From positions 98,447-162,446 of IMG/VR virus record IMGVR_UViG_3300037231_000119: a stretch of 64,000 nt of DNA; one strand, written 5' to 3'. Below are positions 1-43,501 of this stretch, one piece after another; positions within the stretch are counted from its first letter, which is position 1; each line of letters opens with the position of its first letter. The stretch comes from a virus. The notes beneath the pieces were generated by a model that worked only from the letters and a program-made list of their open reading frames with translations, was not told the DNA's origin and did not search any database. A program made the position numbers and the translations under genes.

Positions 1-1158
1 TGCGCGATCGTTAGCGAATGACAACCACTTAATGTCTTCCGTGGGAGAAATGCCCATCAAAGGGGTACGAAAAGAATTCTGAACACCATTAATTGACGCT
101 TGGAATTCCTGTCTGAATTTTTCAAGAGTGGGGGAATCAACATCATCACTCTTAATAACTAATGCCCCACGAGTGGCTCGTCCATTTTGAAAATATAGAC
201 GCATCCACGTATCAATACTTATGTGTGATGTGATACTCGAAATAGCAGTTTCTATTGGTGGAATAGGATATCCATTTTTTTCCACGTCCGTAGACGGGTA
301 GAAAATGTGCATCAGAAGTTCCTTATGGGTAAAATACTGCTTAGCAATTCCCTCTACCTGCTGGCACCAAGCATACTTGTCTTCTCTGAGCTTGTCGTAG
401 TCAATTTTGATTTTATCGCCAGTGATGCGCTCAAGTTCTTTAATGGCTAAAATACGACTATTGGTTCCTGCACTTTCACCATTTCGTACCGTTTTGTAGA
501 TGGTTCCAGAGTCAATCGGCCTAAAACGGTTGAATGGGAATTCCCCGTCCTTATCTGGATCGGATTCACGATCATAAATGATTTCAGTGCCCATCCAACC
601 AAAAGTGCAGGCGTTCTCTACCTGTGTACTTAGATATTGACTAAGGGTCATCTTCTGTTGATTTTCAAGACCCTCTGTATGACCGCAGTTCAGCAAAACG
701 GTCTCTAGCCGCTTAATTCTTTCCACTACTTTTTCGTACTGTTCGGTATTAAGAAGTTTCATGAATTCCGGCAGGATTTCAATCGACATTCCCTTGTCGA
801 ATCGGTCAGCACGCTTCTTACCAAATTGACTAAGCTGTCCGCCACGAGTACGGAGGATGGCAGCAATCAAATGATCCTGGGTTCGGACCATCTTCAAAAT
901 ACTATCTGGGATCTCATTTCTTTTAGCCTTAACAACGCCCGCATAAGCATCATTATAATTCGGGCTCTCCATAAAGGTAAGAGCGGGAGCACGTTCCGTA
1001 GCCTTACCGGTCGCGTCATTCAATGCTTTTTGGAGCGGAGCAAGATCCATCTTGTTCTTATTTAGTTCTTCTAGAGGCCCCATCTTGGACGACTCAGAAA
1101 GAGTCAAAGACATCTTGCTGGGCTTAATGGCAGATTTAGGCTTTGTGTCATCAGTCAT
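1..1158 (-). CDS. Portal protein (partial, C-terminus beyond window)
   Basis: The minus-strand frame from the ATG at 1158 stays open for 386 codons to the window edge, so the 3' end is missing. The hand translation begins MTDDTKPKSAIKPSKM and later contains GYPIPPIETAISSI, HISIDTWMRLYFQNG and RATRGALVIKSDD. These are typical of the portal core, which forms the dodecameric ring at the capsid vertex through which DNA is packaged and to which the large terminase docks. It lies just downstream of the terminase and a small structural gene on the same strand, the usual head-gene order. I infer the portal function from these motifs and the context. The frame was rebuilt by reverse complementing the plus strand. 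Confidence 0.8.
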   Translation of the reverse strand, partial: MTDDTKPKSAIKPSKMSLTLSESSKMGPLEELNKNKMDLAPLQKALNDATGKATERAPALTFMESPNYNDAYAGVVKAKRNEIPDSILKMVRTQDHLIAAILRTRGGQLSQFGKKRADRFDKGMSIEILPEFMKLLNTEQYEKVVERIKRLETVLLNCGHTEGLENQQKMTLSQYLSTQVENACTFGWMGTEIIYDRESDPDKDGEFPFNRFRPIDSGTIYKTVRNGESAGTNSRILAIKELERITGDKIKIDYDKLREDKYAWCQQVEGIAKQYFTHKELLMHIFYPSTDVEKNGYPIPPIETAISSITSHISIDTWMRLYFQNGRATRGALVIKSDDVDSPTLEKFRQEFQASINGVQNSFRTPLMGISPTEDIKWLSFANDRA

Positions 1159-1161
1159 AGA

Positions 1162-1959
1162 TTAGCCCATCGAAGCAAAGAAGATATTGGCCGTAGTTAA
1201 ACTCAAATTGTTCACCGTAAGGGAGTATACTGGACCTGCCATAAAAAATACCGCTGGTTGAGTCAGGCCATTAACCGTAAAGGGATTCAGGACCATCGCC
1301 GTCCCATTGTTATATATCACGGAGATCTGTTGGTCCGATTCCATATAGATGAAGGAGGCTGGCTGATAGAAACTAACCCCTACAGTCCCAGAAGAGGTGG
1401 CAGCCTGGGACATCGTAAGGGTAGGAGCGACACTGGACGCGAATGTGATGGTCGCATCTCCAGTTCCGCTCACTAAGGTCAAAGTTCCTGAAGAGGTTGG
1501 CGCTCCAGTTTGGATGGTAGGGAGGGTTGTACCGGCCACAATGGTGCTTTGGGCCGTAAAGTTATGTCCATTGTTGGAATAAACGGCTCCAGCGGTAGCA
1601 TTAGCTGAAGTTACAGTAAATACGGTATTTGGGGATATGGCCGTGACCGTCGTTCCTACTGGGATACTGCTTCCAACGATTAGATTCCCCACAGCTATGC
1701 CCGTTGGAGAGGCCAGGATGGTCATCGTCGTAGTACTACTTACTGAATTGCTACCGGCATTCGTGGTTACTGAAAAGGGGTACGGGACGATGTTGGGGGT
1801 AGTAATTCCTGGAAGTACTTGAATTTGTTGATCATTTTCCGTATTGAACGGGATTCCGTTTATCTCTCTTAGCCATTTGAAGTTGCTCCTAGATGGCGTG
1901 GTAGTTGGCAGTAAGTCGTTGTAAGTATTGAGAAATACCTGAATATTGGTCCGCATCAT
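1162..1959 (-). CDS. Beta-rich virion structural protein with tail-fibre-type repeat
   Basis: This 265-residue protein is rich in Thr, Ser, Val and Gly and has no recognisable catalytic motif. Its middle carries a module of about 50 residues (ATAGAVYSNNG through SGTLTLVSGTGDATITF) that recurs three times in the tail-fibre protein at 46935-48824. A neighbouring segment (PTLTMSQAATSSGTVGVSFY) resembles part of the protein at 54581-57532. It sits between the portal and terminase genes on the same strand. A decoration or fibre-like virion protein is the best inference; the exact role is unknown. Confidence 0.6.
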   Translation of the reverse strand: MMRTNIQVFLNTYNDLLPTTTPSRSNFKWLREINGIPFNTENDQQIQVLPGITTPNIVPYPFSVTTNAGSNSVSSTTTMTILASPTGIAVGNLIVGSSIPVGTTVTAISPNTVFTVTSANATAGAVYSNNGHNFTAQSTIVAGTTLPTIQTGAPTSSGTLTLVSGTGDATITFASSVAPTLTMSQAATSSGTVGVSFYQPASFIYMESDQQISVIYNNGTAMVLNPFTVNGLTQPAVFFMAGPVYSLTVNNLSLTTANIFFASMG

Positions 1960-1994: not shown

Positions 1995-4900
1995 TCAAAA
2001 CGAAAAATGGAAAGACCCCTTCTTCCCTGTTCCACCTTTAGATACGGGCCCACCAATAGCCTTAGCTAGCTCTTTTTGCATCATTTCATGCTGTTCCTGG
2101 GTGTGTCTTTGCGCTTCAGGGATTGGATTGGGGAGACTAGGATCTATCATTGAAATATTGGGTCTTTGGGGTCCACTTACCGGGAACATATTTTGACCTA
2201 AATATCTCAAACTATCGCATATGTCGGCAATACCAGGAGTGTCATCTGGGGTGGAAGTAACCTGTCCCTGACCATCTAGAACAAACCTATGCTTCATTAT
2301 GGCAGTTCTGACTTTTTTGGTATTTTCTGTCTCTAGTACTTTTAGGAGCCTTTGTCCAGTTGCAGTCATAATTTTTGATCTAACTGACCCGATACCGCCC
2401 ATAACATCTTTGGTAAATTTTGGACAAGGACATCCATTTCTCACAAAAGCTTTGATATATGCTGGAGCCGAAGTATCTGCGTACCACTTCATAACACTAT
2501 ATTTTTCTTTGAAATTGACAGCTACCGGTATTAAGTCCTGAATTTCTAATTTTGGACTAGCAAAACAATCGATAATCCAAACCTCTCCACTTGGTAGTTT
2601 GGCCATTACTAAAATAACACTATCGTGGGTATGACCCCAGTCAACACCGCAGTAGATTGGGATGTCCAGAGATTTTAGGATCCCCATAATCGTATGTTCC
2701 GCAACATTAGAGGGGGCCGGATTTCCAGTCAAATCCTCAAAAGCTTGTTTTAGAGAAAGTAGATTACCTTCTTTATATCTATCCACGTATCTGGGGTAGA
2801 CGAGACCTTCAGAACCAGGGCGCCAGCACATTAACTCAGCAGAGGCAATGTCCGCATCGTTATCCGCAAATTTTTGGATTACGGACGAGATCGGTTTATA
2901 GAAACCACCGGTAGCTGTTTGCGGTTTTTGGGACAATCTGGTTCTACATACCGGCAAGAGCTTACATCCAACACACCCACCATGGACATTAGTGAGCATG
3001 TCGTATTTGGGCTTCTCGACATCGGGGAGTCCATTGAACTCCTCCCCGCTGATTTGTTTTAGGGGGAGATCTTTTACTACGAAGACATCTTGCTTAGGGA
3101 GATCCGGCTTATGTCTAGATGGGGGACAAGCTTCCGTAACGTCTAAAATATTCCAGGAAAGTATGGTCGAATTGGTCCCTTCGGCCTTATCGATTGCGGC
3201 CTGCATGTTACCAAAGTTGTATTTTCTGGTTGAAAGGTATACCTTGATACCGTGAAACCCTCTACTGAAACCCGCGATGTTCTTTCCCTGCTTGATAGCT
3301 GCTGGATCGGCCAAGTCCAATTCGTCCAAAAACAGGAAGTTTGCATGTAGGGAGTTCATTCCCTTAGGTGTGCAGACCAATATTTTAATAAAAGGGTTTT
3401 TACCATCAGGAGTTTTGTATCTGGTAGTTCTCTTGTTTTTAGTCATATTGATCCAACCGCTGATCTCTAGCAGAGGGGCAATATTGGTCAAGAAATCATC
3501 GATATAAGACATAGCGACTAGAGATTGTTCTTCGGTCGCTGCTGCATGGGCAACAGTTCTGGAAAAATGCAACATGATTAGAAGCTCTAGAATCGAGACA
3601 GAAACGGTATTGTGACTAATGAGCCCATTAGACCAATACGAATGTTCATTCTCTACGGTTAGGTCATAAAAATACTGAGGTCCTGGATCTTCTACGGAGA
3701 ACTTTTTCCACTTATTGAGCAAGATCTTTTCATATCTACGGACTATTTGAATATCGTCTTCTGAGACGTATCCATGTTCGTAGTTTTCGTTCATCCAGAG
3801 ACATAGGCGGTTGAGCTTATCAAAAGTGACACCTTTGTAGTAGGCGGCTTGATCCGTGCGATCTTTCTTGACCCTCCTATTTTTTATTTTTGCATGTCCG
3901 TATCTGTTGCACACATCTAAAAAATCTTTTATGTGAGCGATAGGAAGAGAGTCCTTGCAGTTGGGAATCTGATTTTTTTTATATCCTTGGGCTTTCTTAG
4001 CCTTAAATATGATTCCAAGTTTCTCAAACTTAGCAGACTCCGTTTGACCTATAGTCAATCTACTAACGAGATGTTTTTGAATCCCATAGAGTTTTTTATT
4101 ATGACGCACTCTAGACTCTATACCCATTGCTGCCAAGGCGATCTGCATTTGGTCTAAAAGTGGACCGGCAGTCATTTCGAAAAACGAATCGCCTTTCTTA
4201 TCCCAGCAACCGTCCGTATCAAATACGCCCGCGATAAAGCCCTTCATGGCATCGATATCGGAATAGGCGTAAGAAGGAATTGTCTTTTCCCAAGAATAGG
4301 AATTGGTGAGACCCCATTCTCTTATCTGGTCCAAAGCCCTTCTATTGGTTATTGTATAGCTTAAGTTGGTTCCTCCATAACATATATGGGAATCATGGAG
4401 GTGTTTTTCGGCAAAATAGTAAAAAAACTCTTTCGTATGACTGTCTATCGTTGTAAGTGAGAACCTACAGTATTCGTCCATTAAACTGAGACCGCCGTCA
4501 CCAACAAGCAGTCCCAAAAAATACCCGATCTCGTATTTTTCTCGATTCTTAACTACTGAATCCTTAAATCCAGTATTTACATTAACACAAATAAGGTCCG
4601 TCCCAACATTCAAATCTTTTCCGGCTACCCATTGTTCCGTACCATTTCTCAAACACCAGTATCTATGGATAGGAGTTCCGGTGGACTTAAACCCTCCGTC
4701 CAATCGGACCTCGAGTGCCGGTTTCATTCCCTCATCAAAAGTCTCCGTAACTTTTTGCCATGAGAATCCAGTCCATACAATATCTCCCCTTTTAACATCC
4801 TCGATCTTTTTAAACCCATCATAGGTCATTATAATTGTTGACTTTTTCGTACACTTCATCCCTTCTCTGCACGACATGAGAATGAAATTTGGGGTTACGT

Positions 4901-36841: not shown

Positions 36842-37744
36842 ATGGCTAAAGAAGAAGTGTCTCTGATAGATCGTATTCGTAATCGTCTTAATGAAAGTAG
36901 TGGTAAGGAGCTTGTTAAAGTTTTCGGAGAGGGGGATAGTCTGCTCCAGGTGAAGTCTTGGATTCCCCTCAAGCCCTTCTTTAAGCTTGGAACGGGCGGT
37001 GAGGGATTCCCCTGCGGCCATATTACTACCATTATTGGACGCCCCGATAGTGGAAAATCTACGATCGCCATGGAAGGTATGGTCTCTTGCCAAAAGATGG
37101 GGGGGATTGTGTATCTTCTAGATTCTGAACACAAGTTCTCAATGGGCCGGTTCGCTCTTATGGGCGGCAATCCTAAGGATATCATGGTCATTCAGACAGA
37201 TACACTGGAAGAGGCTTGGACGGCATACGAAAATATTCTCAAAGAGGTTGTTGCTCTTAGAGAAGAGGGGGTTAAGGTTCCCATGATGTTGGTGTGGGAT
37301 TCCGTGGCTGCGAGCGTTCCAGAGGCTATGATGCAATCTGAAGCCGGTGATCAACATATGTCGTTAGAGGCAAAGATTAACAACAAAAATGCGCGAAGGC
37401 TTAAGCAATTGATTGAAAAAACAGAACTTGCGGCAGTTCATATCAATCATTATTATATGACCGTTGCTAAAACCAAGTTTGAGCAGTCGGAACTTATTAT
37501 TAAAGGCGGCGAAGAGTTGAGTTTTTTATCCACCCTAATTCTCCGCACAAAGCAGGGCGCTAAGATCACCAGGACCGTCTTGGGCGAAGAACAGCAAATT
37601 GGACGCGTTACTCGATTCTTCGTCCATAAGGGCCACTTCCACGGGCGAACAATTACCAAAGATGTCAATGTCGTAGATATTGGCATTCTGGAGACTCCAG
37701 AACAGCTTAACGAATATAAGAAGTCGTTGAGAGGCGAGATTTGA
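36842..37744 (+). CDS. RecA/UvsX-like recombinase
   Basis: This 300-residue protein starts at ATG 36842. It has Walker A GRPDSGKST at about 66-74, GIVYLLDSEHKFS, Walker B-like MMLVWDSVAAS and a DNA-binding loop region with NNKNARRLKQLIEKTELAAVHINHYYM. This fits phage UvsX-type RecA homologues that drive strand invasion for recombination-dependent replication. It lies in an operon with the SSB-like gene and is followed by a structured RNA. Confidence 0.88.
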   Translation: MAKEEVSLIDRIRNRLNESSGKELVKVFGEGDSLLQVKSWIPLKPFFKLGTGGEGFPCGHITTIIGRPDSGKSTIAMEGMVSCQKMGGIVYLLDSEHKFSMGRFALMGGNPKDIMVIQTDTLEEAWTAYENILKEVVALREEGVKVPMMLVWDSVAASVPEAMMQSEAGDQHMSLEAKINNKNARRLKQLIEKTELAAVHINHYYMTVAKTKFEQSELIIKGGEELSFLSTLILRTKQGAKITRTVLGEEQQIGRVTRFFVHKGHFHGRTITKDVNVVDIGILETPEQLNEYKKSLRGEI

Positions 37745-37956
37745 AGACACGTAAAATTTGGCGGCAGTGTTGAATCGTAGAAACATAGCCTGCCAAAAGT
37801 GGGCGCCTTAGGAACCTAGTCAGTTCCGACATCTATCCTGGACAGGTCGGATGGGGAAGTAGGGGTAACGGCCTACCCGCCAAAAGAGATGCTTCGGTCG
37901 CGCCGAAGACCAAACGTCAGGTGGCGTGACAAGCAGGGAGAGACCTGCACACATAA
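37745..37956 (+). ncRNA. Structured intergenic RNA, family not recognised
   Basis: The 222-base gap after the recombinase is dense with stems. TTTGGCGG (37757-37764) is fully complementary to CCGCCAAA (37877-37884) and can close a domain holding GGAAC/GTTCC, CCGAC/GTCGG and GTAGG/CCTAC stems. Then come CTTCGG/CCGAAG (about 37891-37907) and GCAGG/CCTGC (about 37933-37947). No T run follows and a ribosome binding site is next, so a riboswitch-like 5' UTR or trans-acting RNA is possible. Some motifs faintly recall cobalamin riboswitches. Confidence 0.6.
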
Positions 37957-37966
37957 AAGGATACGA

Positions 37967-38875
37967 ATGTTACAAACTCCAATTGAACGTCCAACGGCCT
38001 CTAGAGACAAAGTCACTACCTCAGAAAATTTTGAGCTTTGTTACTTAAGACATCAATACTTTCGCAGGGTTAAGTATAATCCGACTCCTGAAGAAATGCA
38101 ACCCTTCATGGCCATTGTGGAACATTTGACCAAAAACACTTTCTTTACGTATTTTAATCTATTTAAAAACGTGGGGATGTATCACGACGACGTTCTAAAT
38201 ATTGGTCGTGTCCATCTGGTTTCCTTCCTTGGCCTCTACGCTCTGGACAAAACGGAGACCAAAAAGAGAGAGTTTGAGGTCAAGTTCCACGTCTATAACG
38301 GCCGACATGCCGAAGAAAAGGACATTGAGCAGAAGAACAAAGCTAACTTTACCATGTTCTTTAAACAGCGCATGGAAGACCTAGTTAGAGTTTGCCGTCA
38401 GAAGGTTCGTAACGTCAAAGGCCAGCCATCAGAAGAATTTGCGGTTTTCTGTGGGACAAAGAAACCTCCTAAAAAATACCCCATACTACTCAAACAATTC
38501 CAAGAACTTGGATATAAGAAAGTAGATTTTGCGGTCTTTAAGTCAATCAGGAAGAAGGCCGATGTCAATCACGACGCAACCATTTTCGAATTTGGTGGCC
38601 TGTGGTATGTAGCTATTGCTCTAGAGCAAAAGAACCTCGAGCTGGATGATCTAATTGGTTCAGAGTATAACCCCTACGATAACGCCCATAATGCACAGCC
38701 AGACCAGAATCTAGAAGAAAAAGAGGTACAGATGTTCACCGCTCTTTTTGAGGATAGGTCTAATTACAGAAAAAAGATCCTTTTGAAGAAATTCGTTGCG
38801 GAAAACAAAAATCGGGCGCACTATAAAGAAGAAGTCTCTACTGCCAGAAAACTTTTGAGATCTATTGGAGAGTAG
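37967..38875 (+). CDS. Hypothetical protein, possible sigma-like factor
   Basis: I start it at ATG 37967 (302 residues) behind AAAAGGA, not at an upstream in-frame ATG that lies within the structured RNA. The N-terminal segment FMAIVEHLTKNTFFTYFNLF, then MYHDDVLNIGRVHLVSFLGLY, resembles sigma region 2 (DDLxNIGxxGL pattern). The rest (VFCGTKKPPKKYPILLKQF, FEFGGLWYVAIALEQ) is unfamiliar. A second, divergent sigma or RNA-polymerase-binding protein is a low-confidence suggestion. Confidence 0.6.
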   Translation: MLQTPIERPTASRDKVTTSENFELCYLRHQYFRRVKYNPTPEEMQPFMAIVEHLTKNTFFTYFNLFKNVGMYHDDVLNIGRVHLVSFLGLYALDKTETKKREFEVKFHVYNGRHAEEKDIEQKNKANFTMFFKQRMEDLVRVCRQKVRNVKGQPSEEFAVFCGTKKPPKKYPILLKQFQELGYKKVDFAVFKSIRKKADVNHDATIFEFGGLWYVAIALEQKNLELDDLIGSEYNPYDNAHNAQPDQNLEEKEVQMFTALFEDRSNYRKKILLKKFVAENKNRAHYKEEVSTARKLLRSIGE

Positions 38876-42367: not shown

Positions 42368-43501
42368 ATGGACAATATTGCAAATACTTTTGATGACGTT
42401 CTGATTAAGCCACGATTCTCAAAGATCGCTAGTCGGGCAGATGTGGATCTGAGTTTCAATGGAGACGGCTTTCCCTACATGGAGCTTCCCATTATTAGTG
42501 CGAACATGGACACAATTACGGGCTCCGATATGGCCCATGCGATGATATTTGGCGGTGGTCAGGCATGCTTGCATCGTTTCTCATCCATTGAGGAAAACGT
42601 TCAACAATTCTTGGACGCCAGATTGGTTGCAACTGGGGAATGTAGAATCCCCATGGTTTCGGTTGGATTGGGCAATAAAGAGTTAGACAGAGCAAGAGCC
42701 TTATTTGGCGCAGGCGCTTTCACCTTTATTGTGGATGTAGCTCACGGTGCCAGCATGGGCGTTGTTCAACAGGTAAGGGCGTTGCGAGAGATCTTTAATG
42801 ATCGTATTGCGGTCGTGGTTGGAAATTTTGCAACTGGTGAATCTGTGAAGGATTTTCTTGAGATCTGTCCAGAAGTTGATGGATTCAAGGTCGGTATTGG
42901 TCCGGGTTCGCTATGCACTACTCGCATCAAAACAGGAGTTGGATTTCCCCAGTTGTCGGCCATTATGGAAATCTCGCAAGTACTTAAAAGGACTGGCATT
43001 CCTGTTATTGCGGACGGTGGTATGAAGACTCCGGGAGACTGTGCTAAAGCCTTAGGTGCAGGAGCCAGCATGTTAATGATCGGAAGCATGCTCGCTGGAA
43101 CGGAAGAGAGTCCAGGAGAAACGCAATACCTACACAAGTCCGGTAAGACGTTTAAGCTTGAAGACTTCCCAGTTTCTGTGGACTACAGCTATTTCTCGAA
43201 GGAGCTGCAGCAAGAGTTCCAAAGTAAGATCCCCAAGGTAAAGAAATATCGCGGTTCCGCTTCCCAAGAATCCTACGAAGCTCAAGGAAAGACTGGATCC
43301 CATCGTACAGCAGAAGGTGAATCAACTTTCGTGCCATATAAGGGTGCGGTCAAAGATATTCTCCAAGATATTGAAGGTGGTTTGAGATCCGCCTTCTCTT
43401 ATGTAGGAGCTTGCAATTTGAAAGAATTTCACGATAAGGTTGAATTCGTGAAGGTAAGTAACGCCACTAAGATCGAAAACAGCGCCCATCTCATTAAATA
43501 G
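42368..43501 (+). CDS. IMP dehydrogenase / GMP reductase family enzyme
   Basis: This 377-residue protein contains NTFDDVLIKPRFSKI, the active-site loop GPGSLCTTRIKTGVGFPQL with the catalytic Cys, IPVIADGGMKTPGDCAKAL and MLMIGSMLAGTEESPGE. It lacks CBS domains. KTGVGFPQLSAI is closer to GMP reductase, while other parts are IMPDH-like, so the reaction (XMP synthesis or GMP to IMP) is undecided. It may adjust guanine nucleotide pools or a modified-base route. Confidence 0.85.
   Translation: MDNIANTFDDVLIKPRFSKIASRADVDLSFNGDGFPYMELPIISANMDTITGSDMAHAMIFGGGQACLHRFSSIEENVQQFLDARLVATGECRIPMVSVGLGNKELDRARALFGAGAFTFIVDVAHGASMGVVQQVRALREIFNDRIAVVVGNFATGESVKDFLEICPEVDGFKVGIGPGSLCTTRIKTGVGFPQLSAIMEISQVLKRTGIPVIADGGMKTPGDCAKALGAGASMLMIGSMLAGTEESPGETQYLHKSGKTFKLEDFPVSVDYSYFSKELQQEFQSKIPKVKKYRGSASQESYEAQGKTGSHRTAEGESTFVPYKGAVKDILQDIEGGLRSAFSYVGACNLKEFHDKVEFVKVSNATKIENSAHLIK

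Follow-up and report, generated by a model that had tools for sequence, protein, structure and literature searches.

Two adjacent structured RNAs beside a uvsX-like phage gene belong to two conserved, covarying families outside Rfam

Among phage RNAs already described, GOLLD and ROOL are structured, phage-encoded and standalone, often lie near tRNA genes and have no assigned function; GOLLD linkers sometimes hold tRNAs (PMC12286853). They assemble into a homo-oligomeric nanocage. At the other end of the size range is the put RNA of phage HK022, about 70 nt (PMC9378689). It binds the zinc-binding domain of the RNA polymerase beta' subunit and antiterminates in cis. A third type of interest here, the bacterial Y RNA-like RNAs (YrlA), joins a stem to a tRNA-like module.

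The locus to be compared with these systems lies in the window, by which we mean the whole 64,000-nucleotide stretch analysed (98447-162446 in a virus record 162,446 bases long). A gap of 212 nt at 37745-37956, in which no credible ORF was found, separates two genes:

36842..37744, + strand: UvsX/RecA-like recombinase, upstream neighbour (Pfam RecA, 5.9e-26; phrog_97, 8.9e-39)
37967..38875, + strand: conserved 302-aa protein of unassigned function, downstream neighbour, with a distant homologue in Myxococcus phage Mx1

The product of the downstream gene, termed 37967 from its start, had no match in Pfam, PHROG or NCBIfam, and its AlphaFold model is too poor to use (pLDDT 57). An earlier note on this DNA had placed in the gap a single structured RNA without known assignment, richer in GC than its neighbours. 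The composition is as claimed, at 0.538 GC against 0.456 in the upstream gene, 0.413 in the downstream gene and 0.434 in the window, though about 5% of 212-nt windows are equally GC-rich; the folding energy of the gap is moderately unusual (z = -2.14; 2 of 200 shuffles equally stable). The unassigned structured RNA was borne out by covariation in homologues and by the lack of an Rfam match, but its being a single one proved wrong in detail: two elements from different families lie in tandem, RNA-1 at 37757-37884 and RNA-2 at 37889-37953, and that both folded RNAs exist is close to certain.

Both families are new to the Rfam catalogue. Rfam 15, searched with the window (down to E<=10) and with the family-1 and family-2 loci, gave no match over either element, and assignment of RNA-1 or RNA-2 to any of its families, relaxed thresholds included, was accordingly rejected. 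A literature search, short of supplementary motif lists, turned up none of the exact strings, so that an unnamed earlier listing is possible. A hidden tRNA or tmRNA was likewise rejected, ARAGORN calling none in the window or elsewhere in its record. The resemblance to a cobalamin riboswitch that the earlier note had suggested finds no support: no such match appears even at E<=10, only short strings such as GGGAAGTAGGG are in common, and the strings quoted are those of RNA-1 P4 and RNA-2 hairpin 3, which belong to unrelated covarying contexts. Nor was a B12-related gene recognised downstream, the 37967 product having no known domains. As for GOLLD and ROOL, their Rfam models did not match the family-1 or family-2 loci at relaxed E-values. 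Many GOLLD members exceed 800 nt, against 130-230 nt for family 1 and 63 nt for family 2, and the present families have another conserved core and include many copies away from tRNAs. They share with GOLLD and ROOL a phage-borne occurrence, every carrier but one MAG contig and two plasmids being a viral record, and in L103, L092, L161 and B1VFA, though not in the window's own phage, a place next to tRNA genes.

Family 1 and its divergent member RNA-1

DNA BLAST of the window gap against named phages returned chance matches only, and related uncultured phages were reached through the neighbouring proteins. Five of their loci (L009, L011, L012, L015, L022) have a noncoding stretch directly upstream of the 37967 homologue, and share a core, GUGGAAAGCYG ... 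YRGAGACAC, together with a 3' hairpin whose loop is GUMGCG. The core pattern by itself drew 49 stretches from IMG/VR, the majority clearly homologous although their phages differ widely in gene content, and in all about 65 distinct copies of family 1 were found, on phage contigs with unrelated neighbouring genes; ten chance matches to the pattern had no match to the family-1 model. The layout is as follows: a closing helix, P1, of 6-14 bp without constraint on sequence; a joint of two bases, mostly CG; P2, which has five pairs at its base, a conserved internal loop GAAAGC/RGAGA (GAAAGCU/UGGAGA) and a variable distal part; P3, variable and 28-138 nt long; and P4, five pairs capped by the GUMGCG hexaloop and abutting the 3' strand of P1 without a gap.

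Covariation of the stems in homologous loci, on which the earlier note had staked its structured RNA, is present in this family as in family 2. With 27 sequences aligned, pairing reaches 96.5% of cells, against 69.8% after shuffling, with a covariation score of 0.747 against 0.198; two-sided changes occur in 19 of 22 pairs, and sliding the partners by 1-3 columns lowers pairing to 50% or less. Over 66 distinct sequences pairing is retained at 97.0%, and two-sided changes number 380, where shuffles give 105. All 8 P1 positions covary, and all five P4 pairs show two-sided changes. The first 27 sequences had been admitted only where P1 and P4 could pair, so the independent check is given by the 34 members outside the model: P1 is paired at 94.5% and P4 at 99.4% in these, where redistributing the partners among the sequences gives 53.8% and 79.5%, respectively, with some bias towards the model remaining in that these members were themselves found through it. 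Two further elements of structure were considered. A pseudoknot between the P4 loop and J1/2 was dropped, as the junction bases pair within P2 (C-G, U-A, A-U covariation), and a conserved sub-structure in P3 was not upheld, the folds there being heterogeneous.

Carriers of family 1 are all viral records except for one MAG contig. The R1 covariance model, run on 58 bacterial genomes of the phylum of that MAG, matched in 1, the MAG already known, and in none of the other 57; a chromosomal housekeeping RNA of that phylum was rejected on this result. The consensus was not found in named phages and plasmids. Copies were present in 27 of 30 other carrier records examined, several of which have two or three. 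Paralogues within the genomes of L066, L120 and L033 keep the P1 5' strand (GTTGACGG, AAATACAG and ATGAGCGG, respectively), the remainder having diverged.

RNA-1, the window's copy, is a divergent member:

37757..37884, + strand: RNA-1, matched by covariance model R1; its syntenic position is taken by canonical homologues in L009, L011, L012, L015 and L022
37757..37764, + strand: P1 5' strand, TTTGGCGG, pairing with 37877-37884
37767..37786, + strand: reduced P2, GUGUU-GAAUCGUAGA-AACAU, by comparison with the GUGGAAAGCYG...YRGAGACAC core
37859..37876, + strand: P4 hairpin, GUAGG-G-GUAACG-G-CCUAC, whose pairs show two-sided changes in the family
37877..37884, + strand: P1 3' strand, CCGCCAAA, abutting P4; P1 covaries in the family

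R1, built without the window copy, gives it a score of 23.4 bits, with E=7e-4 when 208 kb are searched and E about 1e-6 for a stretch of 301 nt. Its P1 is the perfect 8-bp long-range stem that had been reported, exact at 8 of 8 pairs; P4 has 5 of 5 pairs and lies flush with P1 as in the rest of the family, with GUAACG as a variant of the GUMGCG loop. Absent from RNA-1 are the P2 internal loop GAAAGC/RGAGA and the distal P2 helix. Since P2 is reduced and the loop altered, RNA-1 is to be regarded as divergent, perhaps decaying or re-purposed. The same record has a second, canonical copy on the minus strand (G000:38689-38835; 90.8 bits, E 7.5e-21), carrying the full P2 motif.

The minimum-free-energy fold of the gap lacks the long P1 and pairs its TTTGGC with a nearer TGCCAAA instead; it is the comparison among homologues that settles on P1 and P4 as the predicted fold over this alternative. 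The second possible partner lies about 25 nt downstream of the P1 5' strand (window 37757-37796), and the two pairings are mutually exclusive.

Family 2 and RNA-2

Four nucleotides beyond P1 begins RNA-2, a canonical member of its family with a fold more stable than that of any shuffle (z = -3.4; 0 of 300 equally stable):

37889..37953, + strand: RNA-2, three hairpins, identified by homologues, covariation and z=-3.4
37892..37908, + strand: hairpin 1, CUUCGGUCGCGCCGAAG, loop GUCGCG; covaries
37914..37927, + strand: hairpin 2, ACG...CGU, then conserved GACA; from sequence alignments
37933..37948, + strand: hairpin 3, GCAGG-GAGAGA-CCUGC; covaries

The family consists of hairpin 1 with loop GUCGCG, hairpin 2, a conserved GUGACA, hairpin 3 with loop GAGAGA, and CACA, and window 37889-37953 has every one of its defining features: the three hairpins, GGUCGCGCC, GUGACA and GGGAGAGACC. 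The pattern GGUCGCGCC ... GGGAGAGACC retrieved 17 stretches, 15 of them clear homologues, L053 included (with L147 and L153 as near duplicates), and 2 apparently chance matches in coding sequence. Besides the window, family 2 is represented at 14 distinct or near-distinct viral loci, in Rhizobium phage B1VFA and on two rhizobial plasmids. Pairing in the alignment is 94.4%, with 40 two-sided changes against 12 and a covariation score of 0.565 against 0.194. A further pairing, of the hexaloop with GUGAC, is possible, both sides being nearly invariant.

The two families have a motif in common: the GUCGCG loop of RNA-2 hairpin 1 is that of family-1 P4, and the corresponding loop in B1VFA, GUAGCG, is a variant also seen in family-1 P4. 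They are close neighbours in the window, in L053 (with about 11 nt between them) and in L156 (about 220 nt). Both have conserved, covarying folds, are phage-borne and intergenic, and lie outside Rfam.

Some related loci show other structured elements. Behind the family-1 copy of L028 is a second structured domain (L028:6372-6470), enclosed by GAGAGT/ACTCTC, in which a GGTCGCGCC hairpin resembles hairpin 1 of RNA-2; the R2 model scores it at 16.6 bits (E 0.04), and it is perhaps an intermediate form. A match to Rfam SorX (48.1 bits, gathering 46.6) lies about 160 nt downstream of RNA-2 at L154:4569-4642. In Sinorhizobium plasmid pLM21S1 (L174:2906-3863) RNA-2 is part of a noncoding island of ~950 nt with several CGCCCGAATGGGCAACG-type hairpin repeats, and in the related contigs L148, L155 and L159 it is directly upstream of a gene for a TerC-like membrane protein.

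Genomic surroundings and possible roles in cis

Family-1 copies have diverse neighbours: GroEL-like, exonuclease-like, tail and unknown genes. By simple ORF calling, and so roughly, 51 copies are followed by an ORF of 100 aa or longer, on the same strand in 43 and on the opposite strand in 8; upstream ORFs are co-directional with the copy in 41 of 50; upstream ORFs being equally often co-directional, no special tie to the downstream gene is indicated. Several copies have no sense gene immediately downstream, and in L036, L072 and L050 the gene directly downstream of the RNA-1 relative is on the opposite strand. An IMP dehydrogenase-like ORF is found at window 42368-43501, and another upstream of the family-1 copy in L045.

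Both neighbours are co-directional in 35 of the 49 family-1 copies for which both were called, as would suit a cis-acting transcription element: RNA-2, and perhaps RNA-1, could be a nascent-RNA antiterminator like HK022 put, keeping RNA polymerase resistant to termination and so ensuring readthrough of untranslated stretches or long operons. At about 63 nt RNA-2 is close to put in size, put is likewise a short phage RNA with conserved hairpin loops inside transcribed regions (PMC9378689), and what follows RNA-2 is an ORF, a tRNA or another RNA. But put is made of two stem-loops behind early promoters, whereas RNA-2 has three hairpins and occurs mid-operon and in tRNA arrays, and RNA-1 is a P1-closed multi-branch fold in varied places, among them the three directly upstream of oppositely oriented genes. 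We consider antitermination unlikely.

In both families a few copies are close to tRNA genes, at no more than 15 nt. Family 1 adjoins them in L103 (about 6 nt) and L092 (about 13 nt); in L161 family 2 sits among the 12 tRNAs of an array, 7 nt ahead of tRNA-Met, and in B1VFA it abuts the following tRNA-Cys with zero nt between. Distances of zero to seven nt are what a ribozyme that cleaves or processes itself and thereby trims phage transcripts, freeing tRNA 5' ends for instance, might show, and strictly conserved loop nucleotides on freely variable stems are a property of known small ribozymes. Most copies are away from tRNAs, however, the search for a conserved position that might be a cleavage site found none, and no Rfam ribozyme family matches, which together make this explanation very unlikely. 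ARAGORN calls no tRNA gene anywhere in the window's record, and a tRNA-related role is therefore not general. In L015, L050, L117 and L120 the tip of P2 has a T-arm-like sequence, recalling the tRNAs of GOLLD linkers and also the tRNA-like module of YrlA, so that family 1 might be a Y RNA-like partner of Ro60. The T-arm is present in only about 6% of members, a TROVE/Ro60 gene in 0 of 20 carrier records (the search worked on a control genome), and there is no Rfam match; this idea is largely refuted, and its probability is very small.

Other RNA-like stretches were noticed in such surroundings. On Shinella plasmid NZ_CP132310.1 RNA-2 is followed at once by a stretch (L173:4067-4190) that lacks annotation but resembles a tRNA in its T-arm and acceptor end (GGTTCGATTCC...GCCGGACGCCA); its centre is unusually large, it is not called by ARAGORN, and it shares a noncoding island of ~680 nt with a tRNA-Cys. 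A third noncoding RNA-like stretch, with GCGTGGGCAATCCCCAAGTC in common, is found at L002:3904-4410, L001:3904-4520 and L102:~1140-1280 (minus strand). In L001 and L002, set apart from each other by an insertion of some 102 nt, it occupies the place of family 1 upstream of the 37967 homologue; Rfam had no match to it in L002, and R1 none in L001 or L002. In L021 the stretch upstream of the 37967 homologue (3755-3990) is noncoding and hairpin-rich, has no R1 match, and is possibly another RNA.

Position invites the further suggestion that the gap is a cis-regulatory leader of the 37967 gene, riboswitch-like or a protein-binding operator. RNA-2 ends 13 nt before the 37967 start codon; RNA-1 relatives are directly upstream of 37967 homologues in at least six lineages, the window's included, even where ORFs intervene after uvsX; and the window's P1 5' strand has two mutually exclusive partners. 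Against this, both families lie upstream of many unrelated genes, tRNAs and opposite-strand genes, a different RNA occupies the same place in L002, and no Rfam riboswitch matches. As RNA-1 has copies next to unrelated genes, several of them with no sense gene immediately downstream, it is unlikely to sense a ligand in cis, and we judge the leader as a whole quite unlikely. Some cis role, whether in antitermination, in processing or as a leader, is nevertheless possible, especially for RNA-2: within the window's lineage the place before the 37967 homologue is maintained, and RNA-2 is in general followed by a transcribed unit.

Stand-alone RNA genes as the preferred reading

With neighbours so varied, RNA-1 and RNA-2 are most likely independent noncoding RNA genes whose products act in trans. 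That the gap consists of two adjacent phage genes of this kind, transcribed with the replication operon and working by a trans mechanism, we think probable, if not by much. RNA-1 and RNA-2 would each fold independently inside the transcript, and would be stable in it or be cut out of it. Their action in trans would depend on the constant core, the GUMGCG hexaloop with the purine-rich RGAGA internal loop or the GAGAGA loop, which is probably a binding or docking surface, leaving the P2 tip and P3 free to vary. Since family 1 occurs among unrelated phage gene neighbourhoods, the partner is likelier to be a host gene-expression component or a host defence factor than any one phage protein.

Several observations count against the reading as trans-acting genes: RNA-1 is degenerate, with the distal P2 lost and the loop changed to GUAACG, and could be decaying; the window's lineage keeps a family-1 RNA just upstream of the 37967 homologues (L009, L011, L012, L015, L022), as a cis-regulator would be kept; and in both families the majority of copies run in the direction of a downstream gene or tRNA. 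Broader, and more tentative, is the proposal that the families are two new classes of phage RNA with one recognition scheme, GUMGCG hexaloop plus GAGA element, acting in trans on a host component, maintained as 1-3 diversified copies per genome and sometimes fused to tRNA-like arms; we offer it as a plausible conjecture.

Phage noncoding RNAs are poorly catalogued, and two compact, strongly covarying families are clear targets for experiment; the presence of RNA-2 in a cultured phage, Rhizobium phage B1VFA, whose laboratory host is R. leguminosarum VF39SM, makes it testable at once. The R1 and R2 models would allow others to annotate both families. If the hexaloop and GAGA motifs do bind a host factor, they would represent a new way for phages to act on their hosts through RNA.
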